Source: a virus. From it: a stretch of DNA of 40,901 nucleotides. This document shows positions 10,110 through 25,020 of this stretch, piece after piece (position 1 is the first letter of the stretch; each line of letters starts with the position of its first letter). The stretch is taken from IMG/VR virus record IMGVR_UViG_3300018892_000068, positions 1 to 40,901 of that record, one strand, 5' to 3'. The position numbers and the translations under genes were made by a program. The notes below the pieces were generated by a model. It ran no database searches. It had not been told where the DNA came from and saw only the letters and a program-made list of their open reading frames with translations.

Positions 10110-10307
10110 ATGAACCAAAGAACCGTCACCGTACACACAGAAGAGGATGGCACAGTCCATATGCTCATCCCTTCCAGGATTAACCAGATGCGCCATAGTG
10201 AAGAGGACTTTCAGAACTGGCAGTATCTGTATTTCGAGCAGCAGAATATGCAGGCTTATGAGGCTATCCCGTACGCTTACGGGACACTTAACCAGGCGGC
10301 GGCATGA
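10110..10307 (+). CDS. Hypothetical small protein
   Basis: 65 residues. Strands at the N-terminus (RTVTVHTEEDGTVHMLIPSR) then a Gln/Tyr-rich helix. No family recognised. Stop overlaps the PP-loop ATPase start by 4 bp. Confidence 0.6.
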   Translation: MNQRTVTVHTEEDGTVHMLIPSRINQMRHSEEDFQNWQYLYFEQQNMQAYEAIPYAYGTLNQAAA

Positions 10308-11053
10308 AACGATATATCAGTTTTTCGGGGGGGGTAGAATCTACGACCATGTGTCTGCTGTTTGGCAACAAAGCTGATGCGATCTTTGCCGACACCGGCT
10401 TTGAGCACGAGCTCCTGTACGAACGAATAGACAAAGTGGAAAAGGCGGTAAGAGCGTTTCACGGTAACAATTTCAAGGTTATTCGCATCAAGAGCGAAAA
10501 ACACGGAAGCCTGAAAGACTACATTGTTAAGCAAAAGTTCTACCCCTCGCCCCTGATGCGCTTTTGCACAGCCAAGTTCAAAATAGAACCTATTGACGCG
10601 TTCCTTAAAACACAATCGGATTGCGAGCTAATGATCGGCTTGAACGCCGATGAGCAGCAAAGGGTGGGCAACCACGGACTACTTACCAATGTGACCTACT
10701 CATACCCACTGATCGAACTTAATATTAACCGCGCTAAGTGCGAACAGATTTTGAACGCGGTAGGGCTGCATCCTCATTTTCCTGCCTATATGCAGCGCGG
10801 TGGGTGTGTAGGGTGCTTTTTTAAGTCGAAAAAAGAATATGTGGCTATGGCCCTACTCAATGAAGATGAGTTTGACCAGGTAATGCAAATCGAAGAATCT
10901 ATACAGGATAAAAGGGATAGCTTTTATTCGATTCTCGGTAACATTACCCTCAGAGAGCTTAAGACCCAGGCGAAAGCTTCTCTTTTTCCTGCCCTGGAAA
11001 TGTACCCTGAAAAACAGTTTTTCACCAACTGTGGCGTATTTTGTCACAGATAA
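10304..11053 (+). CDS. PP-loop ATPase, PAPS-reductase-like family
   Basis: 249 residues. The PP-loop is at the N-terminus: F-S8-G-G-V-E-S13-T-T (SGGxxS). Next come I-F-A-D-T-G-F-E-H-E and R-F-C-T-A-K-F-K-I-E-P near residue 86, typical of phage phosphoadenosine-phosphosulfate-reductase-like proteins, and a GGCVGCFFKSKK cysteine motif near residue 167 that may bind a metal or Fe-S cluster. These enzymes adenylate a substrate; relatives thiolate tRNA or DNA (TtcA, DndC). The substrate here is unknown. It lies 1.7 kb upstream of the ParB/ABC-GNAT cassette and could supply a related modification, but that link is inferred. Confidence 0.8.
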   Translation: MKRYISFSGGVESTTMCLLFGNKADAIFADTGFEHELLYERIDKVEKAVRAFHGNNFKVIRIKSEKHGSLKDYIVKQKFYPSPLMRFCTAKFKIEPIDAFLKTQSDCELMIGLNADEQQRVGNHGLLTNVTYSYPLIELNINRAKCEQILNAVGLHPHFPAYMQRGGCVGCFFKSKKEYVAMALLNEDEFDQVMQIEESIQDKRDSFYSILGNITLRELKTQAKASLFPALEMYPEKQFFTNCGVFCHR

Positions 11054-11081: not shown

Positions 11082-11213
11082 ATGATGCTACACCCACAGG
11101 AACTACGTATTGGAAATTGCTTTTTTGATAATGAGGGCCTTTTGGCCCGATTCAGGCAGGCAGACCTGCGCAGCTCCAGAATATTTTTTACTTTATCACA
11201 GGACAAGAATTAA
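11082..11213 (+). CDS. Short 'QELRIGN' phage protein (43 aa)
   Basis: Begins with tandem ATG codons and encodes 43 residues starting MMLHPQELRIGNCFFDNEG. The P-x-E-L-R-I-G-N-x-(V/F) start is a hallmark of a common Bacteroidota phage protein family, whose members are usually more than 90 residues. This copy is short and may be a reduced or decayed version. Two hairpins that could be mistaken for terminators (11135-11148 and 11156-11169) fall inside it. Ends 10 bp before the next gene. Confidence 0.55.
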   Translation: MMLHPQELRIGNCFFDNEGLLARFRQADLRSSRIFFTLSQDKN

Positions 11214-11223
11214 CCCTAAACCC

Positions 11224-12459
11224 ATGAAAAACCTAACACAAGAAGCAATCGACAATTTAATCGAATTCCTGGAGTCTTTAAACTACACAGTTACGGGGCC
11301 TCAAACAAACAAGTTTGAGCAAGGTAAGTGGTATTATTATCCCGAATCTATGCACGAAAACTATCTTTTTCGGGTAGTTGAGGTAAGAATTGGCAACCCG
11401 GTAAAAGTATTCTATGAAGATTCTTTTGAGAATATACTAGGTGAGACTGATAGTTACTTTGAGTTAGGTTCACCAAAAGGCACAGAATCCGTATTGGCTA
11501 CGCCCGAGCAAATTGAAGAGCATCTATTATACGCTGCTAATCAGAAAGGCTACGCCGAAGGTGTAAAGGTGAAAGATATTAGCAATTCAAAAGAGCTTGT
11601 TATTTCAGACTTCTATCGGTATTATCCGCATAGAGATATGCTTGTGTATAACAGGCCTGACTACACACTTGATTTTGTTGTTGTCTACAAGCAAGGTCAA
11701 TGGGCCGAAATAATGCCCGAACCAAAACCGCAGCCCGAAGCTGACAAGTTCGAGGTCGGTAAGTGGTATTACAACAAAGTCCGCGACGAACTTGTAAGGG
11801 TATCTCAAGTAAGAGGAAGGCTGATAGATTGGGATAGTGGTAGTTTGGACGGTGCAAATGTCGCTTTTACGCAGGACTCAACCTATGCAATCAATTGCGT
11901 TCCCGCTCATGCGGATACGGTCAAAGAACACTTGCTGAATTTGGCAAAAGAAAAAGGCTATTTTAACAATCCGCACGTGAGGCCATTTGAAAGATCGCTA
12001 TCCGGAAGGTTCGGCCCATCCCCTTTTTATTTATCGGGCGAGGACGAGTTGTACATAGCTGAAGATGAAGAGTTTATGCTGTGTATTTACAGGCGCGGAG
12101 AGTGGGCTCAAATCACCCCACAGCCAAAACCGCGGTCGGTGTTTGATTTGGTGAATTGGACTAGCAAATCGAAACCAAGCTACCTCTCTAACCTGGAAAG
12201 CGGACGCTTAGGGCAAAAAAGTGCAATAGGCATTTTGTTGGATGCCATTGCCGAACACTGCAAGCAGGTGGAAGGCGATCCGGTATTGGATAGATACTCT
12301 ATACAATACAACCCGCACCGGAATGATTTTTCGTGCGAAGACTCAATACCGATTGTTTCACCCTTCCGCTTCCCGTACCGAGAGCTGGCAGAAAGTTTTC
12401 TTTCCTTAGAGCATAGCCAGGAACTTTTCCGAATCGCACTTAATGTACCAAAACTATGA
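11224..12459 (+). CDS. Protein with two copies of a 'GKWYY...EHLL...KGY' domain
   Basis: 411 residues from the ATG at 11224; the frame is open further upstream but that part overlaps the 43-aa gene. Two repeats are obvious: K-F-E-Q-G-K-W-Y-Y (about residue 33) and K-F-E-V-G-K-W-Y-Y (about 177); E-x-x-E-E-H-L-L-x-x-A-x-x-K-G-Y in both; and closing V-Y-K-Q-G-Q-W-A-E-I-x-P-x-P-K-P and I-Y-R-R-G-E-W-A-Q-I-x-P-x-P-K-P. The C-terminal 100 residues differ. Such modules occur in Bacteroidota phage early proteins with no known function. The repeats have diverged at DNA level, so the duplication is old. Confidence 0.7.
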   Translation: MKNLTQEAIDNLIEFLESLNYTVTGPQTNKFEQGKWYYYPESMHENYLFRVVEVRIGNPVKVFYEDSFENILGETDSYFELGSPKGTESVLATPEQIEEHLLYAANQKGYAEGVKVKDISNSKELVISDFYRYYPHRDMLVYNRPDYTLDFVVVYKQGQWAEIMPEPKPQPEADKFEVGKWYYNKVRDELVRVSQVRGRLIDWDSGSLDGANVAFTQDSTYAINCVPAHADTVKEHLLNLAKEKGYFNNPHVRPFERSLSGRFGPSPFYLSGEDELYIAEDEEFMLCIYRRGEWAQITPQPKPRSVFDLVNWTSKSKPSYLSNLESGRLGQKSAIGILLDAIAEHCKQVEGDPVLDRYSIQYNPHRNDFSCEDSIPIVSPFRFPYRELAESFLSLEHSQELFRIALNVPKL

Positions 12460-12665
12460 AAAACCCTGCACTGATTGATTTGGATGATCTGAAAGACGAT
12501 CAAATATACTGGGTAACCAGAAACAGTGACCCACGACAAGCCCTGATTGAGCTAGTGACCGAAGCGTATCAGGCTGGCAAATATGATGGAAAATATGGCG
12601 AGCCTTCCGAACCCCTGTTGGGTAAATTCCTGCAATCAATAGGACTTGGCCCGGATCAGGTCTAG
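12456..12665 (+). CDS. Hypothetical small protein
   Basis: 69 residues, acidic N-terminus, one Y-Q-A-G-K-Y-D-G-K-Y-G motif in the middle. Start overlaps the upstream stop by 4 bp. No family recognised. It ends 91 bp before the ParB-like gene. Confidence 0.6.
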   Translation: MKNPALIDLDDLKDDQIYWVTRNSDPRQALIELVTEAYQAGKYDGKYGEPSEPLLGKFLQSIGLGPDQV

Positions 12666-12756: not shown

Positions 12757-13260
12757 ATGCAGGAAATTGACATATCTCTCATCCGGGGTAACGAAGATAA
12801 CCCTCGTACTATTACCGAAGACAAGTTTAAACAACTGGTTAAATCTATCCGGGATTTTCCACAGATGCTTAAACTCAGACCGCTCGTCCTGGATAAGGAT
12901 AAGGTTGTTCTCGGCGGCAATATGCGCCTTCGGGCCTGTATCGAATTAGGTTACAAAACTGTTCCGGTTATATACGCATCCGAACTCACCGATGAGCAAA
13001 AGCGCGAGTTTATCATCAAGGACAATCTTGGATTTGGAGCCTGGGACTGGGATATGTTGGCTAACGAGTGGGAGGTAGAGCAGTTACAGGATTGGGGTAT
13101 GGACATTCCTGATTTTAAAAACGATTCTGAAGAGCCGGACTCTTCAGAATATAATACCCGGTTTGAGATTGCCGTTGAATGCACAAGCGAGCGCGAACAA
13201 GAAAAGCTATACGAAAAACTAACCGCCGATGGTTATAAATGTCGCGTACTAACATTATAA
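12757..13260 (+). CDS. ParB/Srx-fold protein of the modification-associated type
   Basis: 167 residues from M12757; an upstream extension to 12646 is open but reads poorly and overlaps the previous gene. The ParB N-terminal fold is clear: D-N-P-R at residues 14-17, L-V-x-S-I near 30, R-P-L-V-L-D near 41-46, and G-G-N-M-R-L-R-A near 53-60. The second half has the D-N-L-G-F-G-A-W-D-W-D-x-L-A-N-E-W motif seen in phage ParB-like proteins next to DNA methylases. ParB folds are now known to bind CTP or act as nucleases or kinases. It ends 1 bp before the ABC-GNAT gene. Confidence 0.82.
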   Translation: MQEIDISLIRGNEDNPRTITEDKFKQLVKSIRDFPQMLKLRPLVLDKDKVVLGGNMRLRACIELGYKTVPVIYASELTDEQKREFIIKDNLGFGAWDWDMLANEWEVEQLQDWGMDIPDFKNDSEEPDSSEYNTRFEIAVECTSEREQEKLYEKLTADGYKCRVLTL

Positions 13261-13261
13261 T

Positions 13262-14347
13262 ATGCCTTCGTTTAATATCATAAGAAAAACACCCGTACCG
13301 GACTCGTTCAGAGCGGCCCGTGTTTGTGGTATGTTTGATATACCCTCCGATCAGGAACGCGTGTTCAAAATCTCGGGTAATATTGACCTTGAATTTGATT
13401 GGGGTATTGGCCTGATCTACGGTTCTTCCGGTTCGGGCAAATCAACAATTGCCAAAGAACTGTTTGATCAACAAATCATCAATGGCTATCAGTGGCAAAA
13501 ACCCTCTGTGATTGATGACTTTTCCGGAAACCTATCGGTAGATCAGATCATCGAATCTCTTACCTCGGTAGGCCTGTCTTCGCCACCAGCCTGGCTTCTG
13601 CCTTATTCAACCCTTTCAAATGGGCAGCAGTTCAGGGCAACCCTGGCAAGGGCAATTGCCGAAAACGACTTTGTCGTATTTGACGAATTTACTTCCGTTG
13701 TGGATCGAATCGTGGCTAAAGCTACCTCGGTGTCGGTCAACAAGTACATCAAGCGAACGGGTAAAAAGTTTGTCGCCGTATCGTGTCATTCCGACATCCG
13801 GGAATGGCTTCAACCTGACTGGACATACGATACTGACACGGGCAACTTTGCCCGTGACTGTCTTTGTCGACCCCAGATCGAAATTAAGATTATCAAAGGA
13901 GAGGTTTCCGCATGGTCTGTCTTTCATCAACATCACTATATGAGTTCTGGTATCTCTCCTACGGCTAAGGTATACCTGGCATATGCTCTGATAGACAACG
14001 CTTATCACCTGGCAGGTATGTTTTCTACAATGCCCGCCATGGGAATGAAAGGCTGGGTACGCGGACACCGTACCGTTATCTTGCCCGATTTTCAGGGACT
14101 TGGCATCGGTAACAAAATGATCGAAGCGGTAGCCCAGCATTTGTACGACTGCTACAAAACCAGATTCAGGGCCACCACTTCGGCTCCGGGCATTGTAAAA
14201 TATCGCCTCAAAAGACCTGATAAATGGAGACTTGTTAATGGAGTGGAAAGCAAGATGCCATCTGGCAATAAAAATATAAAAGTAAAAACGTCAGCCGGAA
14301 GGCTTATCACATCCTGGGTTTATATACCGGAACAACTACGGAAATGA
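13262..14347 (+). CDS. Fused ABC ATPase-GNAT (Mom-like) protein
   Basis: 361 residues in two domains. Residues 30-200 are an ABC-type ATPase: Walker A G54-S-S-G-S-G-K-S-T62, signature L118-S-N-G-Q-Q123, Walker B V-V-F-D141-E142 and a switch His in SCHSD. No membrane segments are present, so it is a soluble ABC protein, not a transporter. Residues 205-361 are a GNAT acyltransferase with H224-H-Y226, R-G-H-R-T-V-I-L-P-D-F-Q-G-L-G-I-G (acyl-CoA loop Q278-G283) and a T-T-S-A-P motif. This is the pattern of the phage Mu Mom group, which modifies adenine in DNA. The substrate of this fusion is not known; DNA is the leading guess from the ParB and ASCH neighbours. Confidence 0.8.
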   Translation: MPSFNIIRKTPVPDSFRAARVCGMFDIPSDQERVFKISGNIDLEFDWGIGLIYGSSGSGKSTIAKELFDQQIINGYQWQKPSVIDDFSGNLSVDQIIESLTSVGLSSPPAWLLPYSTLSNGQQFRATLARAIAENDFVVFDEFTSVVDRIVAKATSVSVNKYIKRTGKKFVAVSCHSDIREWLQPDWTYDTDTGNFARDCLCRPQIEIKIIKGEVSAWSVFHQHHYMSSGISPTAKVYLAYALIDNAYHLAGMFSTMPAMGMKGWVRGHRTVILPDFQGLGIGNKMIEAVAQHLYDCYKTRFRATTSAPGIVKYRLKRPDKWRLVNGVESKMPSGNKNIKVKTSAGRLITSWVYIPEQLRK

Positions 14348-14775
14348 TAACAGACATAGCCAGATTTGCCGGTGTAAACATCTATGATTATCTTCGTTCG
14401 GGCAATAGCATGCTTATCTCGCTCGGTTCTGGTTTGCTCATGGCGACTATGGATCAAATACCAGGTATCCGGTACGCGATAGAGTTTACCAAACAGGAAA
14501 GGGAAAACGATAGATTTGTAGATTTTCTGGCATTGTCATCTAACTATGTAGACCATGTGTGCATTCATGCCTGGTTTTCGATTTCAAAACCCGATGCACT
14601 CAAAAAAGTGTTGGAAAGTATTCCTGAGGATAAAATAGTATACAAAGCAAACGCCGACCTGGGAAGAGGTCGGCGTTTTGAGACTTTCTCGGAACTGTCA
14701 GAACACTTGCGCGATTTTGAAAGTAATGCGACGATAAGCAGGCAGATTCCCATACATTTTTTGCAAAGTGCTTAA
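14344..14775 (+). CDS. Unrecognised protein of the ParB/ABC-GNAT cassette
   Basis: 143 residues, start overlapping the ABC-GNAT stop by 4 bp, so the two are made together. The N-terminal third is hydrophobic with a G-S-G-L-L-M-A-T segment; the rest is alpha/beta with a VCIHAWFSISKPD strand. No motif identifies it. Its last 78 bp overlap the convergent ASCH gene. Strict coupling to the fused ATPase-acyltransferase suggests a partner or chemistry-providing enzyme. Confidence 0.65.
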   Translation: MITDIARFAGVNIYDYLRSGNSMLISLGSGLLMATMDQIPGIRYAIEFTKQERENDRFVDFLALSSNYVDHVCIHAWFSISKPDALKKVLESIPEDKIVYKANADLGRGRRFETFSELSEHLRDFESNATISRQIPIHFLQSA

Positions 14776-14979
14776 GCGATCAGGGGCTATACTAGTTGCC
14801 GGATCGTCAGTTACCGCGGTAACTATCGCTTGCGCAAAAGGCTTGCGTGGGCCAACCGAAAACAAAAGGGTTTGACCAACTTGGTATTCTTCCGTTGGCT
14901 TTCTGTATGTGTCGTCTTTCTTTCCGGAAAGAATGTCTGAAACATAAATCTGCTTGAACCAAAGCGTTTTTGATTTCAT
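14698..14979 (-). CDS. ASCH/PUA-like domain protein
   Basis: 93 residues from the ATG at 14979 (the frame is open to 15027, but the Lys/Gln-rich extension is not conserved-looking). The sequence fits the ASCH/PUA fold: L-W-F-K-Q-I-Y-V-S-D-I-L-S-G-K-K-x-x-T-Y-R, then Y-x-V-G-Q-T-L-L-F, then a F-A-Q-A-I-V-T-A-V strand. ASCH proteins bind RNA or modified nucleic acid. The gene runs leftward against the early operon, and its 3' end overlaps the unrecognised gene by 78 bp. It could read or regulate the modification made by the neighbours; that is inference. Confidence 0.65.
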   Translation of the reverse strand: MKSKTLWFKQIYVSDILSGKKDDTYRKPTEEYQVGQTLLFSVGPRKPFAQAIVTAVTDDPATSIAPDRLSTLQKMYGNLPAYRRITFKIAQVF

Positions 14980-15083: not shown

Positions 15084-15407
15084 ATGCCAATACCTAACGA
15101 GGAAAAGGGGCAGTTTAAGCCCGGACAGTCGGGAAACCCCAATGGTAGGCCCAAAAAACTCCCACAACTGGATGAACTCTTGGCTGATATACTCAGTGAT
15201 GAACAGAAGGGAATGAGTGCCGCTGAGGCCATTCTGAAGCAATTACGCAATATGGCTATTAAGGGAAATATTAGAGCTGCCGAGCTTTTGCTTGATCGGG
15301 CCTATGGCAAGGTGAAAGACGTAATTGACCTTACTGCTAAAACTATAATAATTCACGATGAGCTTGACAAGTCAATCGACGGCGACTCAGATACCGACCA
15401 TAGTTGA
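15084..15407 (+). CDS. DUF5681-type small terminase subunit
   Basis: 107 residues. The N-terminus carries the DUF5681 signature F-K-P-G-Q-S-G-N-P-N-G-R-P-K; residues 30-85 are helical (an A-A-E-L-L-L-D-R-A-Y-G-K helix). DUF5681 proteins directly precede the large terminase in many phages and act as the DNA-recognising subunit. The last 50 bp overlap terL in another frame. Confidence 0.82.
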   Translation: MPIPNEEKGQFKPGQSGNPNGRPKKLPQLDELLADILSDEQKGMSAAEAILKQLRNMAIKGNIRAAELLLDRAYGKVKDVIDLTAKTIIIHDELDKSIDGDSDTDHS

Positions 15408-16599
15408 TGCCACTGCCGCAAAACTCTATGTGTCTAAGTTCTATGACTTGATTGCCTCGCGTGTTAAACAGCCGATTGTACTACTCTCCGGTGGTCGCGG
15501 TGGCGCTAAGTCCACATCAGTAGCGCAAGCATTTGGACGCTCAGCTGTACGTGGGCAGTATCGTCGTCAGGCTATCGTTCGTAAATACTTTAAGTATATT
15601 AGAGACTCTCAGTACACTGACATAAAAACATACCTGGAAAGGCTTAGGATTGAGTCTGAAGTAAACATTGGTGTCTCGCCACTTGGATTCCGTTTTCCCA
15701 ATGGAAGCGAGATTATTTCGCTTGGTCTGGATAAGTCTAAGGTAAAATCGTTATCGAATGTAGAACGCGTATGGGTGGAAGAGGCAACAGAACTTTCGCG
15801 GGAAGATTGGTTAAACCTGGTGCCTACCATCTTGCGCGGTTCAGGACACAAGCAGATTATTCTTACTTATAATCCTGAGTATGGCCACTGGCTAAATGAC
15901 GAATTCTTTCATCCGAACGGACAGCCTAAGCGAGATGATACGTACTACCTGCATTCGATCTACAAGGATAACCCTTTCGTTGGGCCGGTATTTACCCAAT
16001 GGGTAGAAGGGTTGTCAACCGATCTTTATGAACGCATAGGCTTAGGCAAGCCCAAAAGGCTTGAGGGCCTGATATACCCCAACTACGAAGTAGTAGACAG
16101 CTTTCCTGATGCGCCCTTCGTTTATGGGGTAGACAAGGGTTTTAACGATCCGTTCGCCGTGCTTCGTGCATGTATACAGGGTGATTACTTGTATTGGGAT
16201 GAGGTATTGTATGAGCGTTTTCGTACCACCAGTCAGATAATACCTTTGCTTTCAAAAGAACAGAAACACAAGCCCTGGTATTTCGATGACTCAGCAGCGG
16301 ATACCATTGCTGAATTTGCCAACGCCGGATTCAATGCCACCAAAGCAAACAAGGGCCTTATCTATGATGGTATACAGAAGGTTAAGAAATACAAGTTGCG
16401 GGTAACCCGACAATCGGTCAACTTGCTCAAAGAGTTGAGTACCTACACCTGGCTTACTGACAGAAATAATGTTACCCATGATGAGCCAACGCCCGGCTTG
16501 CCCGATCACCTTCTGGACGCTGGTAGATATGCAACCATTAACCTAGCCAGGCCACAAGGCCGCGCCCGTGCACATGCTCATGCATACCGTGAAGAATGA
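15358..16599 (+). CDS. terL: Terminase large subunit (PBSX-type)
   Basis: 413 residues. ATPase: Walker A-like G45-G-R-G-G-A-K-S52, Walker B V138-W-V-E-E-A-T-E-L146, and coupling motif L-T-Y-N-P near residue 170. The C-terminal RuvC-type nuclease starts at Y-G-V-D-K-G-F-N-D-P near residue 257, has Y-F-D-D-S-A-A-D near 305 and D-A-x-R-Y-A near 392. It pumps DNA into the prohead and cuts it at the end of packaging. Overlaps terS by 50 bp and the next gene by 4 bp. Confidence 0.94.
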   Translation: MSLTSQSTATQIPTIVDATAAKLYVSKFYDLIASRVKQPIVLLSGGRGGAKSTSVAQAFGRSAVRGQYRRQAIVRKYFKYIRDSQYTDIKTYLERLRIESEVNIGVSPLGFRFPNGSEIISLGLDKSKVKSLSNVERVWVEEATELSREDWLNLVPTILRGSGHKQIILTYNPEYGHWLNDEFFHPNGQPKRDDTYYLHSIYKDNPFVGPVFTQWVEGLSTDLYERIGLGKPKRLEGLIYPNYEVVDSFPDAPFVYGVDKGFNDPFAVLRACIQGDYLYWDEVLYERFRTTSQIIPLLSKEQKHKPWYFDDSAADTIAEFANAGFNATKANKGLIYDGIQKVKKYKLRVTRQSVNLLKELSTYTWLTDRNNVTHDEPTPGLPDHLLDAGRYATINLARPQGRARAHAHAYREE

Positions 16600-17281: not shown

Positions 17282-19498
17282 CTATTGCACAATAATACGC
17301 CCACTGTCCGGCATCAGTACATAACCATCATCGGGCATAATCAGGTAATCCTTTTCATCGGTTGGTGTAGTCACCGAAGTAAGTTGTGGCAATTCAATCC
17401 GAATCAGATCAATCCAGGTACTATCACCCTGCCCGTGCTGGTACTGGTCTACCTGCTGAATGAAAAAATAGCCGGTGACCATCTGCCCATACCGCACGTG
17501 ATCGCTTTGCAGGCGAATGGGTCTGGCAAAATCGAGTTGCTGTATATCCACACTATCAAGCCGGAGCAGCACCCGCACAAACTTGCCGTTCGATAAAGCC
17601 GCAGCCAGGTAGCGGTAATTCTGCTTGACCAGTAGATCAAACTTGAGCGGCTCAATGGTGATATTGGCCCGGTAGATGGATTCGGCAGGGCCGTCATAGA
17701 TACGAACCGTCTCGGTATTGTCGTCATCGAGCATGGCCAGTGGTGACTCTACGCTCAACAAGTTGAAAAGCTGCAGGTATTCCAGGTAGTTGATTTCTTG
17801 CCACTGTAAATTAGGCGTGGGAATGTTTAGCGGTGGTGACGGGCTGACACCGGGCGGGCGGCTGGTCGGATTGTTTACCGTGGCCTTGTAGTATTTGCCC
17901 CGGTAGTATACATAATCCTGAATAGGTGACTGGGTGTATATCCCGCCATCGAACCAGACCGAGAACCGGTTCTTTTCCTTGATCTCAATAATAGGTTCGC
18001 CCTGCAAGGTGAAGTCGGATTCGTAACCTATCACTTCTTTTTCCAGATGGTGGTTGTCCAGGACAATTTTGCCCGGCCAGGTAAGCTGGTCCTTTTTATC
18101 GCGGTCATAACCAAGAATGGTATTTTGTCCATAGTCATCGAGTTCATAAGACAGTTCTGGCGGTAAGGAGAAATCAAGCCGTTCGGACATATCCACCGCC
18201 TTGCGCCACGAAGTGGGTACCACATCAAACGGCTCAATCCGGAGGATGCGGTTACGTGTGTCGGTAATGAATAACAGATTGAATTGATTAGCAATCAGGA
18301 GTAGCAAGTCCTTCTGTTCAAGATCGGGCAAGACCGAACCTACATCTATATCCGCACCTGGAATTACGAAAGGTAACATTTCGAGTTTGAAAACCGTTTT
18401 GTCATCCAGGTAAATGTTGGCATTGGCTACATTATAAGTACCACGCTTGGCTACCTTATACCGTAGTGTTATCGTATCGTTCTCCAGGGCAAAAAACGGG
18501 TCAAAATCAAAGGTTAGTGTTTCAAACTTCTCGCCAAAACGGAATTTATTAACAGCCTTGTCCTGTATGATCTGTCCGTTTTTGAGTAGCTGAGCAGCAA
18601 AGAATACCGGGCCGTCGCACATGGTATGGAAGGTTGTGCTCGCCTGATAGATACCGGTGCCCCGGATAGTGGCTACACCATTGGAGGTATTGTACACGTT
18701 CTTACTACCATCAACAAAATCCCTTGCCGGGTCATTGTCGTTGTTGAGAATCGCATTTACCACCAGTTCGGAATCGTTTCCAGGTCTGGAGCGATACTCA
18801 TAACGTTCCGTACCGGTATACCCAACCCGAAAAGAGCGCGCATCGGTATATGCCTTGTCCAGTTTGGGAAAGGTGTAAGGCATAATTAGCATCCGATCAA
18901 TCTTACTCGATTCCCAAAAGCCACCCTTGATACGGTAAGAAACCTTCCGGGCAATCTGCGAGATAAGATACTTGACAAACACAGCCGGGTAAAAGTCATC
19001 CACCGTTTTGCGATCCCCTAAATGCTTTCCGTAGTCAGCGACCGGATAGATATATCCATCTGGCCAGGTGTGCACCTGGGTATCGAGTATGTTGGCAATA
19101 TTCCATTTGTGGGAAAAGCCCGATAGGTCAATATCCGAAAGCTTCTGTCCTTCGATCAGCTCAAAAAAGTTGTAGTTGCCGCCCACGATTTCAGCGTCTA
19201 ACATTCCATCAGTCACGCTGATCAGCCGCATGATTCCGTCGAGCACTATCGTATCGTCTTCCAGAATCCGCACCCGCAACTTACGGTAGGGCAAACGCGA
19301 AAAGGTATTAATGTGTTCGGGTAATTCCAGCGCTTCGCAGTTAGCCTGTGTCAGCGGCAGCTTAAACGTGTTGGTATAATGGGTCTGGCGTGATTCGATG
19401 TCACGCAGGTTGTTGACCGCGTAAGTGGTAGCAATGATTTCCCGTTCGGAAAGCTCGAGTACCGCGCCGGACTGAAGTTGTAGTGCAATTCCTCTCAT
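17282..19498 (-). CDS. Large tail-tip/baseplate-like structural protein
   Basis: 738 residues, last gene of the leftward tail operon. The N-terminus has the N-N-L-x-x-I-x-x-R-Q-x-x-Y-T-N-T-F-K-L-P-L-T motif found in large Bacteroidota phage tail proteins. The rest is beta-rich with many aromatic residues and ends in an M-P-D-D-G-Y-V-L-M-P-D-S-G-R-I repeat. No enzymatic motif is visible. By position (distal to the tape measure) it is expected at the tail tip. Start overlaps the upstream gene by 4 bp. Confidence 0.72.
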   Translation of the reverse strand: MRGIALQLQSGAVLELSEREIIATTYAVNNLRDIESRQTHYTNTFKLPLTQANCEALELPEHINTFSRLPYRKLRVRILEDDTIVLDGIMRLISVTDGMLDAEIVGGNYNFFELIEGQKLSDIDLSGFSHKWNIANILDTQVHTWPDGYIYPVADYGKHLGDRKTVDDFYPAVFVKYLISQIARKVSYRIKGGFWESSKIDRMLIMPYTFPKLDKAYTDARSFRVGYTGTERYEYRSRPGNDSELVVNAILNNDNDPARDFVDGSKNVYNTSNGVATIRGTGIYQASTTFHTMCDGPVFFAAQLLKNGQIIQDKAVNKFRFGEKFETLTFDFDPFFALENDTITLRYKVAKRGTYNVANANIYLDDKTVFKLEMLPFVIPGADIDVGSVLPDLEQKDLLLLIANQFNLLFITDTRNRILRIEPFDVVPTSWRKAVDMSERLDFSLPPELSYELDDYGQNTILGYDRDKKDQLTWPGKIVLDNHHLEKEVIGYESDFTLQGEPIIEIKEKNRFSVWFDGGIYTQSPIQDYVYYRGKYYKATVNNPTSRPPGVSPSPPLNIPTPNLQWQEINYLEYLQLFNLLSVESPLAMLDDDNTETVRIYDGPAESIYRANITIEPLKFDLLVKQNYRYLAAALSNGKFVRVLLRLDSVDIQQLDFARPIRLQSDHVRYGQMVTGYFFIQQVDQYQHGQGDSTWIDLIRIELPQLTSVTTPTDEKDYLIMPDDGYVLMPDSGRIIVQ

Positions 19499-20013
19499 CT
19501 GAGTTGAGTATAAAACAGTTGGGATAGGCTCATACGGAAAGATACCCGTAACTTGGATTCGGCGCTGTTGAATTCGGTATACTCGCCTTCCTCAATATTA
19601 ACCGGACGGTTGGTGCCGCTATCGCTCCACCAAACCCAAGGACTCGACAAAAGCGTCATCAGGGCCGGAACGTCGGCGGCAAAAATCGGTTGCGATTCAA
19701 TTTCAATAAACTTGCGGGTAGTGCCCTTGTCAAAATAGAATTCAGCCGAACTGCCCGACACGGCCCGCTTGCCGTCAGTGATGCCGCGTAGTTTGGAGTG
19801 ACGTGCCGAAAACAAAAAGTTATCCACACCGCCGCGGGTATTGAGCCAGTACAGGTGTATCCCATCACTACACCCATCGCCACGATTAAAACCCGATAGT
19901 AGTTCTACCGTTTCAATAACATTCGTGTCGTAGTTGAGCTGGCTAACCAGACAGGGTGCCGTACCCCACTTGTAGGGCCGAACAAATTCAGAAAGTCTTT
20001 CGAGGCAGGACAT
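19495..20013 (-). CDS. Tail-module structural protein
   Basis: 172 residues, beta-rich, overlapping the 738-aa gene by 4 bp and lying 3 bp from the DUF5977 gene. No family recognised. Its place between two large tail proteins makes it a likely minor tail component. Confidence 0.62.
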   Translation of the reverse strand: MSCLERLSEFVRPYKWGTAPCLVSQLNYDTNVIETVELLSGFNRGDGCSDGIHLYWLNTRGGVDNFLFSARHSKLRGITDGKRAVSGSSAEFYFDKGTTRKFIEIESQPIFAADVPALMTLLSSPWVWWSDSGTNRPVNIEEGEYTEFNSAESKLRVSFRMSLSQLFYTQLR

Positions 20014-20016
20014 AGG

Positions 20017-21339
20017 CTACGGGTTAAGTCTTAGGTTCGTGTATATAGTTTCTTCAAGTTGATTGGCACCGGGATCATTTCTAACCAGTCTGGTATAAGC
20101 AGACACCAGAAAATCCGTTCCGGTAATCATGGCAGAGTGCACGCTACTGGATTGCACTACGCCATTTATCTTGTTGACAATATCGTAGTATAAAGTGACA
20201 GGTCCACCGGTTGGTACCAGTATGTAGATGTCCGCATATGTACCCTGCACGATACCGGCAAACTCGGTGCTTACATTTCTGAAATCAAAAGAAGGTGAAA
20301 TGACGCTGCACACGCCATTGGCATTGGCATACGCCTGTCCACCGGCAGCTAGTGCCGCATCGGCTTTGGCATTCGCATCTGCCTGACTGATGGTAGAAGT
20401 ATGTGCTCCGGCCGGGATGGTATAGGTAACAAACGAACCGATACTGCCCGCCGCGCAATTGTTGCGGCGAAACTGTTGTGACCGCGCCTCGCTCGCATAA
20501 GTGACCGGGCAGGAAGTAGCATTGGAATCGTAATAGAACAATGCACCCGAATTGCGAAATTGATTGAAGGTTGGGCTGTTGGGGTTAACGTCTTTTTGCC
20601 GGGCTACCCGGTTGGAGTTGGTGCGTGGGTTGTTCTGCTCACATTGCAGGGTGGACAAGTCAAACTGCCAATCCGGAAGGTTGTTTGCACAGGCTGGGTT
20701 AGCTGGTTGCACCATGCTGTTGATTGCGTAGCGATCTTCACCGGTTGTTGTGACACCATTGATGGTATAATCTACCCGGTACTTCCGAAACAAAGCAGCT
20801 TCAATGCCCAGGCTCATACCCGGAAAACCCATATTACGAAAGTATTTGCGCAGGTACGGCGACAAATTAAACCGGAACCGCCCGGAAATATCGCGGTCGT
20901 AACGGATCGGGCCCGCGTCTGCATTGTCCACATACAGCCGAAAGCCCGGATTGAACTTTTCCACAAATTCAAGCGTGTATAAGTCTATATAGTCGCCGCC
21001 CCGGTAGTCGGTGTCTGTATCGTAGTACAGGTAAACGTCACCATTGCCAAGAGCAACCTGTCCATTAGCCGTGACCGTGACCGGTTCGGGATATTTCAAT
21101 TCACTACCAGACCCGACGTAAAACGCACCACCGACAATAGGCACGTTGCTATTGCCGATCACGGCCAGAATACGCAGCTTACCGGCATTGTTGAATTGCA
21201 AATAGGAACCAATGTAATCCGGATTGCCGGTGTTGAGTGGCGGCAGAACAACCTTGTAGTCAAACTCGTACAAAACCGGTAACTGTGCAGACTGCCAGCG
21301 TTTGGGCTGGTTAAGGAAAGTAAGTGACATATCAATCAA
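20017..21339 (-). CDS. Tail protein with DUF5977 domain
   Basis: 440 residues. Residues about 265-345 carry the DUF5977 pattern: R-S-Q-Q-F-x-R-N-N-C, G-S-x-V-T-Y-T-I-P-A-G, S-Q-A-D-A-N-A-K-A-D, G-Q-A-Y-A-N-A-N-G-x-C. This domain recurs in tail and surface proteins of Bacteroidota and their phages and is thought to be an exposed binding module. The N-terminal 250 residues are beta-rich. Overlaps the upstream gene by 8 bp. Confidence 0.8.
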   Translation of the reverse strand: MIDMSLTFLNQPKRWQSAQLPVLYEFDYKVVLPPLNTGNPDYIGSYLQFNNAGKLRILAVIGNSNVPIVGGAFYVGSGSELKYPEPVTVTANGQVALGNGDVYLYYDTDTDYRGGDYIDLYTLEFVEKFNPGFRLYVDNADAGPIRYDRDISGRFRFNLSPYLRKYFRNMGFPGMSLGIEAALFRKYRVDYTINGVTTTGEDRYAINSMVQPANPACANNLPDWQFDLSTLQCEQNNPRTNSNRVARQKDVNPNSPTFNQFRNSGALFYYDSNATSCPVTYASEARSQQFRRNNCAAGSIGSFVTYTIPAGAHTSTISQADANAKADAALAAGGQAYANANGVCSVISPSFDFRNVSTEFAGIVQGTYADIYILVPTGGPVTLYYDIVNKINGVVQSSSVHSAMITGTDFLVSAYTRLVRNDPGANQLEETIYTNLRLNP

Positions 21340-21775
21340 ATATGGAGCTGATGACTAATTTTCGGTAATATTCGGCAAGATGTTTTCGCAGTAATGCAGA
21401 TTCTGCTTGTATCGCTTCGGCGAACAACCCCGAAGCGTCACCCTTGTGGGTCTGAAAGATGACCGAACCTTTCTGAGCAATGGCGCGCGCTATCGGAAAA
21501 GCCGATCCTTCAATCCCCTTTTCCCGCATCCACTGTTCGATTGCTGATAACGGCGGGGCCGCGCCCGGCTGCCGCCCGTAGATCAGTTGCCGGATGTAGC
21601 CAACACCAGTAATCACAAAGCCCGAATCAGTGAGCCGGTAGGCAATCGAATCTGCCGCCCGTCCGGTATTGACCGCCGGGCCAAAGCGGGTTAAATCTTT
21701 GATGCGCAGTTCTTGGGCGAACGCCTGGACTAACCTGTCGGCGGATTGGGTAAGAATGTCGGCTACGCTGCTCAT
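21332..21775 (-). CDS. HK97-gp10-like/tail-completion-type protein
   Basis: 147 residues. The alpha-beta layout (N-terminal helix, D-S-I-A-Y-R-L-T-D-S-G-F-V-I-T-G-V-G-Y strands, I-E-Q-W-M-R-E-K-G-I-E near residue 80, then a long C-terminal helix) matches HK97-gp10-like neck or tail-completion proteins. Its position beside a tail-terminator-sized gene and the tape measure agrees. Similarity is by pattern only. Confidence 0.6.
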   Translation of the reverse strand: MSSVADILTQSADRLVQAFAQELRIKDLTRFGPAVNTGRAADSIAYRLTDSGFVITGVGYIRQLIYGRQPGAAPPLSAIEQWMREKGIEGSAFPIARAIAQKGSVIFQTHKGDASGLFAEAIQAESALLRKHLAEYYRKLVISSIFD

Positions 21776-22254
21776 TGCGCCGGATCGGTTAATAAACTAC
21801 CACCGGCGGGCAGAACAATCGGCGCTACCTGACACGCAACCGGCACAGAAACCGCAATCCGCACGGCCATACCCGAAAAGATTTCTGCATCCTGAGCGTA
21901 AAAGGGTTCGTATAAAACCTCCGATACATCACCTACCAGCGAGGGTAACAGGTGTTCGTTCACGTAGAATGTCGCGTAAGTGATTGCATCTACCAGTAAC
22001 CGGTTGGCATCGTGGGGTGTTTCCATGTTGGCAGCAATGGTAACAATACGAAATTCTATCGCATAGAACCGGACCCCGCGCACCTCACGAAATTTCAATA
22101 GTCCGTCCGTATTCACCCAGATGAATGGCGGCTTGACATTCACCGTCCGAAAGCTGCGGGTTTGGGCGGGCCCGTAGTGAAACGGCGTGGTGGACAAGGG
22201 TGCGTACTGTGTACGGGCCTGATCCATTATGAGTAATATCTTGTCGGGTGTCAT
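21772..22254 (-). CDS. Tail-terminator-sized structural protein
   Basis: 160 residues, overlapping the gp10-like gene by 4 bp and lying 3 bp after the tape measure. An alpha-beta protein with G-V-R-F-Y-A-I-E-F-R-I-V-T in the middle and a hydrophobic C-terminus. Size and neighbour order fit a tail terminator or neck protein, but no signature confirms it. Confidence 0.55.
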   Translation of the reverse strand: MTPDKILLIMDQARTQYAPLSTTPFHYGPAQTRSFRTVNVKPPFIWVNTDGLLKFREVRGVRFYAIEFRIVTIAANMETPHDANRLLVDAITYATFYVNEHLLPSLVGDVSEVLYEPFYAQDAEIFSGMAVRIAVSVPVACQVAPIVLPAGGSLLTDPAQ

Positions 22255-22257
22255 GGC

Positions 22258-25020
22258 TTATACTTTTGACCGGACTTCGGTTAGTCCGTTTTCCTGGTTA
22301 ATCTTATTGATTGTGCGCGGGGTCACTACCGGCGCGGGCAGCTTGGCAAACTCCTTACCTAATCTTTCGTAATCAAACTCTGGCATGCGTAGCGACTGTT
22401 GCGCGGCGTTGACTGTCAGACTGCCACCCAATTCATAGAACGGTCTGCCACCCCTGGATACATTCAGATTGGAAAGCCTGGATAGTTTGGCTGAATCAGT
22501 GCGCTTGACAATGGTAAGCAGCTCGCCCTTCTCAGCTTCTATCCATCCGCGCCCTTCTATGAAAATCTTGGTTCCTCCGTCCCGGTGCCGCTTGCCGGGC
22601 AGGGTAATACCTTCGCCGCGCGGGTCAATCGCGCCGCCTTGTTCAAACTGGAGTAGTTGCTTTGCCTGAGCAATATTGGATGCTATTGATGCAATACCCG
22701 ATGCCAAGGTTGAGGCAAATACTGCTGCGTACACTGCAGGTGCAGCGGGTCCGGCTACGCTTGATGCTTCAGCGGCAACCTTTACCGAAGTGGGCACCAG
22801 GGTTGAAATAGCCTTTGCTGTATCAATACCAATTTGTACTAAGGCCAATGCTTTTTGCAGTTCGGTTGCGTCTTCCTGAGAACCAGCCAAGATTTCAAAC
22901 AAGCTACCCATGCCATCTACAAAAGATTTTGCCGCCTGAAACTCCGCTTCGCGTATGAGCTGACGACTACGAAGCGCTCTTTCCTGATCGGAGATTTCTT
23001 TATCAAGGAGTTCTTTTTCAATAGCAAGGATTTCGGCCCGCGCCTCCTTGGTGTCTTTGCCTTGAATGATCAAAAAGTTCTTCCGTGCTTGTAGCCTGAT
23101 TCTCTCCGAAGCGTCCATCTGGTCGTTATACTCACCGCGGGTTTTAATTTCACCCGCTAAAAATTTCCGAGTAATATCCATCCGGGCTTTGGCCGCACTT
23201 GCCTCTACTATCGCCAACCCTTCCTCGAACCTGATCTTGTCGGCCTTTTTCTTGTCCTCCGCTTTTTTTTCAATCTTTGCCCGCTGCTCAGCCTCGTAGT
23301 CAATCTGCTCTTTGTATTGGGCGATTCGTTTGTCGGATAATTCTTTTTCGATCTGTAATTCCAGATCGCCGCGCTCCTTTGCCTGTCGTGCAGCCAGCAC
23401 TTTGATAGCCTCGTATGCCTGCTGGCGGCTAACAATACCTTCTTTGATTAGCTTGTCGTTCTTGAGTCCCTCGCTACGTAGTTCTTCTTTCTGGGCAATC
23501 TCTAACAGTTTACGCCGTTTGGCAAATTCATCTTCCAACAGGTTGGCCCGGTTGGTGGATAGTTCACGATTGAAAGCAGCCTCCGCTTCGGCGGCTTGTT
23601 CACGTAGCCTGTTGCCCTCCTCAATCAAAGCATTAATTTTATTCTGGTTGCGCTCCCGCAAATTGTCGAAATTGCTCACTGCCTCAATCAAGGCCCGTTC
23701 GGCTTTTTGTATTTCCTGAGTGAGTGGGGTAAGGTTTCCTGAAATATCTTTACCGGTACGGGTGCGCAGTTCCAATTCCTGTTTCTTGATGTTGAGTATT
23801 TTTCGTAGTTGATCTATCTCCAGATTAGCTGCCGCTTCCAAATCCTTGTTACTCGATTTAAGTAGTCCGATACGGGTGGACTCCGACCGGGTTCTATCCT
23901 TAGATAGAACAATGGCTTTTTCGGCCTGGGCGTTTGCCCTTGCCTGCGCCAAAGCGATGGCTTCTTCCTGGTCCTTTAAGTCCTGAAGTTGTTCGGTCAG
24001 GGCTGCTTGCGCGCTGAAAGCCTTACCCGCACCGGATACGAGTTTGCCAAAATTTGTGTCCGCTACTTTCCCGACTTCGTTCAGCGCACCCTTGAAGTCT
24101 CCGGTCAAAAACTTGACAATCGTTTTGCCCGCAATCTGGTTAAACTTCACAAAGTCCGCAATCGCCGAATCAATCAGCTCCGAAAAATCAAAGTTGGATA
24201 TGAACTCATTCAGAGCCGTAGTCAGAAAATCAAACACCGCACCGAATCCCGCGCCGAACTGCTCCAGCTTGTCGCCTACAAAATCGGTGGCACTGGCAAG
24301 CTTACTTAGTACAGCCACAATACCAATCAGCACCAGCACAATGGGCACCGCAGCCAGGGCAACGAGTGCGCCACGCGAAGCGGTAACCGACTTGGTAAAG
24401 CCTTGTATGGTAGTTGACACGGAAGTAAAGTTCTGCGTAAGCGAACCAATACTGATACCGGCAAAGTTTATTCCTTCAATCGCCTCCTTAATAGATTCGG
24501 TATAGTTGCCCACGTTAAGCTTCTGCTGATCAAGCTGGGTAGATTGCTCTTTGAGCTCGTCGGTTACCGCGTCAATCTGCTTTTTAAGCTCGCCACCCAC
24601 TTTGACGTTGTTCCTTTCCTCGCGGGAAAGGCCGTTGTATTCCTTAGTGAGTGTAGAAAGTTGTTTGCGTAGCGCGGCAATCGAACCTTCTCGATCCTCA
24701 GTAGCTTTGTTGGATTGCTCCAGAACATTTTTCAAAGCCTTTTCGCTTTTACCAACCTCCTTAATCTGTAGTTCGTTTTTGGTCAGTGCGGCGGTTTTGT
24801 CCTTGATCGCCTTGTTGTTGGCTTCAATAGCGGCCGCATTTTTAAGCTCATCTTTAGCAAGTTCCTGATTGGCTTTCACCAAACTCTTGATCTCGGCAGT
24901 CAGGTTCTTGTTAGCGGCGCGCAGTTCTTCAGCCTGCTGTTTGGCGGCGGCAATACGGGAAATAAGTTCATCGTCCTTAATCTGAAAATCAAGGATGGTC
25001 ACTTCGGTGGTTTCTGCCAT
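22258..25020 (-). CDS. Tail tape measure protein
   Basis: 920 residues. Long coiled coils fill residues 15-160 and 330-690 (Ala/Lys/Glu-rich, e.g. repeated A-A-I-E-A-N-N-K-A). A hydrophobic block near residues 220-245 (A-L-A-A-V-P-I-V-L-V-L-I-G-I-V-A-V-L) and another Ala-rich one near 770-820 are typical of tape measures, which span the membrane during DNA injection. The C-terminal 120 residues are globular (R-G-E-G-I-T-L-P-G-K-R-H-R-D-G-G-T). A length of 920 residues predicts a tail near 140 nm by the usual 0.15 nm per residue, so a siphovirus is likely. Confidence 0.9.
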   Translation of the reverse strand: MAETTEVTILDFQIKDDELISRIAAAKQQAEELRAANKNLTAEIKSLVKANQELAKDELKNAAAIEANNKAIKDKTAALTKNELQIKEVGKSEKALKNVLEQSNKATEDREGSIAALRKQLSTLTKEYNGLSREERNNVKVGGELKKQIDAVTDELKEQSTQLDQQKLNVGNYTESIKEAIEGINFAGISIGSLTQNFTSVSTTIQGFTKSVTASRGALVALAAVPIVLVLIGIVAVLSKLASATDFVGDKLEQFGAGFGAVFDFLTTALNEFISNFDFSELIDSAIADFVKFNQIAGKTIVKFLTGDFKGALNEVGKVADTNFGKLVSGAGKAFSAQAALTEQLQDLKDQEEAIALAQARANAQAEKAIVLSKDRTRSESTRIGLLKSSNKDLEAAANLEIDQLRKILNIKKQELELRTRTGKDISGNLTPLTQEIQKAERALIEAVSNFDNLRERNQNKINALIEEGNRLREQAAEAEAAFNRELSTNRANLLEDEFAKRRKLLEIAQKEELRSEGLKNDKLIKEGIVSRQQAYEAIKVLAARQAKERGDLELQIEKELSDKRIAQYKEQIDYEAEQRAKIEKKAEDKKKADKIRFEEGLAIVEASAAKARMDITRKFLAGEIKTRGEYNDQMDASERIRLQARKNFLIIQGKDTKEARAEILAIEKELLDKEISDQERALRSRQLIREAEFQAAKSFVDGMGSLFEILAGSQEDATELQKALALVQIGIDTAKAISTLVPTSVKVAAEASSVAGPAAPAVYAAVFASTLASGIASIASNIAQAKQLLQFEQGGAIDPRGEGITLPGKRHRDGGTKIFIEGRGWIEAEKGELLTIVKRTDSAKLSRLSNLNVSRGGRPFYELGGSLTVNAAQQSLRMPEFDYERLGKEFAKLPAPVVTPRTINKINQENGLTEVRSKV

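Follow-up and report, generated by a model that had tools for sequence, protein, structure and literature searches.

The 40,901-nt virus record IMGVR_UViG_3300018892_000068 of IMG/VR (positions 1 to 40,901; hereafter the window) carries at positions 12757 to 14979 a four-gene cassette that we read as a phage-borne system for DNA-base acylation serving anti-restriction, in which a ParB-like protein with a C-terminal adaptor and an ABC ATPase would provide nucleotide-gated engagement of DNA (probability of roughly 0.68). The block consists of a ParB-like gene, a fused ABC ATPase-GNAT gene (ABC-GNAT), an orphan gene (ORFX), and a convergent ASCH gene, with a gap of 1 bp between the first two, an overlap of 4 bp between ABC-GNAT and ORFX, and an overlap of 78 bp between ORFX and the ASCH gene. 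An original prediction made from the sequence alone had described this tight block as a candidate DNA-modification system, and the coordinates, gaps, overlaps, and motif positions were all confirmed on recheck. A DNA-modification cassette is the best reading of the present results as well because relatives of the cassette exchange with a Mom-like gene, a ParB protein is a standing neighbor, and ASCH genes recur downstream (convergent in 23 of 47 loci). The predicted identities of the ParB-fold, ABC ATPase, and ASCH proteins also hold, as the ParB_N, ABC_tran (E 4.4e-6), and ASCH matches all exceed the Pfam curated cut-offs and phrog_11143 covers the fusion at full length. Gene order, intact active-site residues, the ABC and GNAT folds, the near-obligate adaptor linkage, the Mom-like exchange, and the donor-gene linkage were computed directly.

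By its sequence, the window ABC-GNAT is a member of the already predicted phage and prophage family of ABC ATPase-GNAT base acylases (phrog_11143), with full-length homology and the same domain order and motifs; the window locus differs in adding ORFX and a convergent ASCH gene. The passages of Iyer et al. (2021; PMC7824862) on this coupling predict a GNAT coupled with an ABC ATPase to be an uncharacterized acyl modifier of a DNA base and credit the coupling to an earlier paper of the same authors, and the chemistry of the fusion, which the original prediction had called uncharted, was therefore already on record as a prediction. The accession cited in those passages, QAX98348.1, is 39.6% identical over 328 aa to the window protein; they tie it to Tenacibaculum phage pT24, yet the record examined is that of Aeromonas phage AsFcp_2 (locus L018). 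A literature search on COG2401 returned no paper. The predicted ABC ATPase-GNAT DNA-modification family was reportedly first described by Iyer et al. in 2013, and with the window locus this large family gains a further member, its function having been a paper prediction ever since. The adaptor module, the Mom exchange, and the donor-gene linkage are new findings at the family level, although part of this may be known from the 2013 paper; none of the three is mentioned in the 2021 passages on ABC-GNAT (PMC7824862).

The ABC ATPase-GNAT fusion

The fused protein (13262..14347, plus strand, 361 aa) matches phrog_11143 over residues 6-357 (E 9e-94). The ABC ATPase domain (13262..13858, plus strand) contains a Walker A motif (GSSGSGKST, residues 54-62), a signature motif (LSNGQQ, 118-123), Walker B D141-E142, D-loop residues S145/D148, and H-switch H176, and the GNAT domain (13862..14344, plus strand) contains the motifs HHY (224-226) and QGLGIG (278-283). 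AlphaFold models gave a pLDDT of 92.9 for the whole protein and 92.3 for the GNAT domain alone, and the structural neighbors are ABC and GNAT proteins. Both halves are predicted to be active because the catalytic ABC residues (Walker A, signature, Walker B D-E, D-loop, and H-switch) and the GNAT residues W218, F221, H225-Y226, R270, P275-D276, Q278-G279, and W322 are invariant across 58 diverse homologues. No permease family that could partner an ABC transporter was found among the neighboring genes tested against Pfam, PHROG, and NCBIfam.

A tblastn search identified relatives of ABC-GNAT in 67 annotated phages, whose hosts include both Gram-negative and Gram-positive bacteria, with part of the weaker matches restricted to the ABC half. 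A scan of viral contigs yielded at least 595 relatives and a genome collection 468, which puts the family in more than a thousand viral and bacterial sequences. The surveyed loci include many close relatives and are not independent samples, and the counts given here and below denote linkage and not frequencies. In the Lactococcus phage P335 and the Oenococcus phage Vinitor-27, ABC and GNAT are separate genes overlapping by 4 bp. Frameshifting or programmed recoding in Firmicutes phages, an idea that came from two tblastn pieces, was rejected for P335 and Vinitor-27, which simply have split genes. In the Tenacibaculum phage pT24 (L016, 3435-4607), the annotation divides ABC-GNAT into two genes, which share a reading frame but are separated by an interruption.

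The ParB-like protein and its adaptor

The ParB-like gene (12757..13260, plus strand) encodes a protein of 167 aa that carries NLGFGAWDWDML and combines a ParB N-terminal domain with a C-terminal adaptor module; it starts with an ATG at 12757, and a longer form starting with a TTG at 12646 is possible. The protein matches ParB_N (PF02195, E 9e-8, 32.5 bits against a cut-off of 26.3), phrog_620 (1.7e-26), and phrog_498 (3.3e-27), whereas the match to TIGR00180 (32.6 bits) falls under the cut-off of 58.45. The helix-turn-helix and dimerization domains of segregation ParB proteins were not matched, ParB_N being the only domain above cut-off in the window protein. The ParB N-terminal fold is shared with the phage proteins of a study on ParB-CTPase folds, which include phage ParB-methyltransferase fusions and, in bacteria, one ParB-acetyltransferase fusion that binds GTP (PMC12704722). 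The window ParB differs from these in being a separate chain that is probably joined to ABC-GNAT by the adaptor.

The adaptor (13150..13257, plus strand; YNTRFEIAVECTSEREQEKLYEKLTADGYKCRVLTL; phrog_28816, E 2e-6) forms the C-terminal ~33 residues of ParB in the window and, in 351 of the 388 loci that could be evaluated, recurs immediately 5' of ABC-GNAT. It lies at the extreme C-terminus of its protein in 338 of 355 cases (≤2 residues after it). In 281 loci the adaptor ends a protein longer than 140 aa, and all 281 of these proteins, none cut by a contig end, contain a ParB domain; in 45 others it stands alone as a protein of ≤75 aa that lacks ParB. Since the first profile was built from sequences beside ABC-GNAT, searches with the adaptor alone were run as an independent test. 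A scan of viral contigs, with a profile made from a closer and less diverse sequence set, found 46 loci, 44 of which have an adjoining ABC-GNAT. The sole exceptions are ParB-adaptor genes without a nearby ABC-GNAT, one contig having two in tandem (L524, 2428-3769) and the other a single gene (L515, 2497-3108). When the 38-residue module of the window was searched by tblastn in 50,697 phage records, there were 16 matches, every one abutting ABC-GNAT. Moreover, a Gemmataceae metagenome-assembled genome has ParB, adaptor, and ABC-GNAT in a single open frame (L108, 4269-6104). This fusion and the near-constant position upstream of ABC-GNAT suggest that the adaptor probably docks ParB onto ABC-GNAT.

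The adaptor found no match in the Mom loci examined. In the Microbacterium phage Pickles13 (L184, 1969-3121), a Mom-like gene overlaps a ParB-like gene whose product ends in a CxxC-type stretch in place of the adaptor, and the idea of an adaptor on the ParB beside Mom was dropped. Pickles13 raises the possibility that phage GNAT base modifiers in general pair with ParB.

Exchange with Mom-like genes

Mu Mom is a GNAT that modifies adenine at N6. The strongest evidence at hand for a Mom-like role of the cassette is its exchange with a Mom-like gene in two Mu-like Porphyromonas gingivalis phages (BK068090 and BK068096), which are 86% identical over the 3.1 kb before the exchange site and 83% identical over the last ~94 bases after it. 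One of the two has the adaptor, ABC-GNAT, and a formyltransferase gene at this site, and the other a Mom-like gene. Among ten P. gingivalis Mu-like relatives with a common preceding tail gene, five have the cassette, four a Mom-like gene, and one neither; the cassette and Mom-like types interleave by tail-gene identity, and exchange may therefore have occurred repeatedly.

In these Mu-like phages, the exchange site is the right end, where mom sits in Mu, and cassette relatives and Mom-like genes thus occupy the same right-end site. A Mu-type transposase was over cut-off in 7 of the 28 records searched (this clade and the Porphyromonas phages); the matches in the two P. gingivalis records were below cut-off. 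In the records that could be placed, the cassette lies toward the end opposite the Mu-type transposase, although its position as the last gene partly reflects how the ends were called because some contigs are trimmed proviruses.

The GNAT domain itself, which the original prediction had called Mom-like, does not bear out that name. Mu Mom matches the Mom family phrog_1384 at 7.8e-84 and the window GNAT has no match to it, and hhalign comparisons of the window GNAT with sets of 4 and 19 Mom-like sequences gave non-significant values of 0.16-0.3. The nearest solved folds are generic GNATs (SpeG and RimI, ~10% identity), and in a viral structure library a Mom protein first appears at rank 50; a true Mom relative was accordingly rejected. 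Grouping by profile and predicted structure had been proposed as a check, and generic GNATs did come out nearest, but this says little either way because all GNATs have a common fold. Both the window protein and Mu Mom belong to the GNAT superfamily. Where the first helix ends, the two may correspond in an H-Y motif: HYS is invariant in four Mom-like proteins and H225-Y226 in ABC-GNAT, and a non-significant alignment brings them into register. The window protein differs from Mu Mom in its ATPase domain, the canonical QGxGxG of acetyl-CoA-binding GNATs, and its other partners.

Candidate donor genes in two clades

Two clades of the family have additional genes that fit a custom supply of acyl-coenzyme A (acyl-CoA) to the GNAT, which could be beta-alanyl-CoA and formyl-CoA. 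In one clade, an aspartate 1-decarboxylase gene and a gene for a short protein resembling class III CoA-transferases lie 3' of ABC-GNAT, often with 4-bp overlaps. The decarboxylase matches Asp_decarbox in Pfam (2e-33), is closest among solved structures to an aspartate 1-decarboxylase (4.5e-22), and retains K9, G24-S25, R54, and Y58, which we take to be the residues essential in Escherichia coli PanD, G24-S25 being the cleavage site. The second protein matches CoA_transf_3 (Pfam, 2e-8), although its activity is uncertain because it covers no more than about half of a class III CoA-transferase, and the alignment to solved enzymes is confined to residues 2-121. A scan with this protein found 35 contigs, and ABC-GNAT adjoins it or is one gene away in all 29 with enough upstream sequence; the decarboxylase is also present in 25 of these 29. 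In one contig (L543, 318-4138) ABC-GNAT follows the decarboxylase-CoA-transferase pair, and matching stretches in L544 and L545 suggest a second ABC-GNAT before the pair of L543, such that two copies may flank it.

In another clade, a protein of the formyltransferase fold is encoded close downstream of ABC-GNAT (60 of 405 loci; Formyl_trans_N, Pfam 3e-17). Among solved structures it comes closest to the N-terminal domain of 10-formyl-tetrahydrofolate (THF) dehydrogenase (8e-24), and as in that domain its HPSLLP motif lacks the asparagine of N-x-H. The N-terminal domain of 10-formyl-THF dehydrogenase hands its formyl group to a 4'-phosphopantetheine arm, a group that is also part of CoA.

ORFX and the ASCH gene

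The orphan partner ORFX (14344..14775, plus strand, 143 aa) gave no match worth reporting in Pfam, PHROG, or NCBIfam. It is a real gene, as relatives directly follow ABC-GNAT in four other loci (L005, L023, L078, and L085). The convergent gene (14698..14979, minus strand) encodes an ASCH-domain protein of 93 aa (PF04266, E 2.1e-5, 25.6 bits against a cut-off of 21.2). Of 405 loci, 47 have an ASCH gene ≤1.5 kb downstream, 23 of these in the convergent orientation, and 8 have one elsewhere; this enrichment is overstated because the seeds were taken from near genes, but the arrangement still recurs. Examples are a Nonomuraea locus and the Pasteurella phage Pmp13, whose convergent ASCH-like gene was recognized by eye and by profile and is below the reporting limit of Pfam. 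The window ASCH protein is a candidate reader of the modified base or a candidate regulator.

Proposed mechanism and alternative functions

In the proposed mechanism, the ParB-like protein would be held in one complex with ABC-GNAT through the C-terminal adaptor of ~33 residues and would supply nucleotide-gated engagement of DNA, the presumed substrate. The ABC domain would dimerize on ATP like other ABC ATPases and may load, clamp, or locally open the DNA, and the GNAT domain would then transfer an acyl group from acyl-CoA to an amino group of the base, with the invariant HHY lying near the acceptor site. In the window phage, an acyl-CoA of the host, for instance acetyl-CoA, would serve as the donor. 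In the decarboxylase-bearing relatives, aspartate decarboxylase and the CoA-transferase-like protein may make beta-alanyl-CoA, and in the formyltransferase-bearing relatives the enzyme resembling formyl-THF dehydrogenase may yield formyl-CoA or formylate the added group. A role in binding the modified base or in regulating the cassette would fall to the ASCH protein. The original prediction had proposed that the ABC domain senses DNA or powers site finding and that ASCH reads the base, both of which are conjectural roles. More tentatively, and at somewhat less than even odds in our judgment, the whole family may be a modular platform for base acylation, with ParB-adaptor and ABC-GNAT as a constant engine in which the adaptor couples DNA engagement to acyl transfer, and with interchangeable donor genes leading to beta-alanyl or formyl bases that are so far unseen.

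Several observations weigh against base acylation by the window cassette. No modified base has been reported for any member of the family, and the chemistry is inferred throughout. The comparisons place the GNAT domain no nearer to Mom than to acetyltransferases of proteins or polyamines, and exchange at a moron site shows at most an interchangeable benefit and not identical chemistry. A Mom-like gene and ABC-GNAT are not always alternatives, since the Aeromonas phage PX29 has both (GU396103, 36309-36881, and L022, 3216-4394, respectively). ABC-GNAT members without ParB and adaptor exist in P12024S, VmeM-32, and PX29. The window phage has a tyrosine integrase and no Mu-type layout, and it has neither the decarboxylase and CoA-transferase-like genes nor the formyltransferase gene.

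The features of the GNAT domain would also suit acetylation of a protein. Among solved structures, those nearest to it in fold are generic acetyltransferases of small molecules and proteins, and ABC-GNAT might modify a host or phage protein, such as RNA polymerase or terminase, for takeover or for the virion, as is described for phiKMV Rac. The common location of the cassette beside terminase genes is consistent with this, and passages of PMC7824862 describe phage GNATs whose target is the host RNA polymerase. However, same-site exchange with a Mom-like DNA modifier and linkage to ParB and ASCH point to DNA, and donor-making genes would be odd for plain protein acetylation, which we regard as unlikely. 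TmcA is an ATPase-GNAT fusion that acetylates a tRNA cytidine, and TmcA and Kre33 (NAT10), as ATP-dependent nucleobase acetyltransferases with ATPase and GNAT in one chain, offer a comparison solely for how the window protein may work. The window protein might likewise acylate a base of tRNA or another RNA, with ASCH as an RNA-binding partner, and ASCH and PUA domains do often bind RNA (PMC7641849). Acylation of RNA is nevertheless quite unlikely, as TmcA and Kre33 have an RNA helicase rather than an ABC ATPase, act on RNA, and have no ParB partner, whereas ParB is a DNA-engaging fold and Mom, the exchange partner of the cassette, acts on DNA.

The cassettes of prophage GNATs with an EVE or ASCH partner of the PUA fold resemble the window cassette and have been proposed to acetylate bases, but they have neither ParB nor such an ABC ATPase (PMC7641849). 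Toxin-antitoxin function has also been proposed for GNAT-EVE systems with an ASCH gene (PMC7641849), and the window cassette might act in anti-phage defense or counter-defense without base modification, either as a nucleoside triphosphate sensor or with ABC-GNAT as a toxin that acylates aminoacyl-tRNA and is neutralized by ASCH or ORFX. A convergent, overlapping ASCH gene could be regulatory in such a system. ASCH is, however, near only 47 of 405 loci and ORFX near 5, which leaves the system without an obligate antitoxin; its constant partner is instead ParB-adaptor, and this makes the explanation very improbable.

If DNA-base acylation is correct, phages use acylated DNA bases beyond that of Mom, which would be relevant to anti-restriction, to the sequencing of phages with unusual DNA, and to DNA-labeling enzymes. 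The family is now directly testable, as isolated phages carry several of its forms, the donor genes name candidate acyl groups, and the natural exchange with Mom-like genes allows a side-by-side comparison. Among such isolates, the Arthrobacter phage EastWest is the closest to the window and has ParB with ABC-GNAT, the Gordonia phage Axumite represents the formyltransferase form, the Gordonia/Rhodococcus phage Jace the aspartate decarboxylase form, and the Lactococcus phage P335 the split form.

Genomic context of the window cassette

The window virus is a temperate phage, as the record encodes a repressor of the S24 type, an AntA antirepressor, a DnaB helicase, and a tyrosine integrase. Judging by the integrase type and the general make-up of the window, its host is probably a member of the Bacteroidota. 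The cassette lies directly upstream of the terminase genes, namely a DUF5681 protein in the position of the small terminase (15084..15407, plus strand; Pfam E 3.6e-20) and the terminase large subunit TerL (15358..16599, plus strand; Terminase_3, Pfam E 2.3e-32), which are neighbors and do not belong to the cassette; cassettes often adjoin terminase across the loci of the family.

About 1.7 kb upstream of ParB, the window encodes a PAPS-reductase/PP-loop protein (10304-11053; Pfam 7.6e-7; phrog_424, 1e-37). This gene was considered as a part of the cassette and rejected, as its relatives occur only in L047, L204, and L032 and none adjoins the cassette. A 449-aa protein without a family match (11110-12459) apparently has internal repeats of KWYY-type segments. 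Downstream, large minus-strand genes (738, 172, 440, 147, 160, and 920 aa) at 17282-25020 form an inverted structural block in the middle of the genome, flanked on one side by the plus-strand terminase genes and on the other by the Clp-protease-type gene and later genes of the plus strand.

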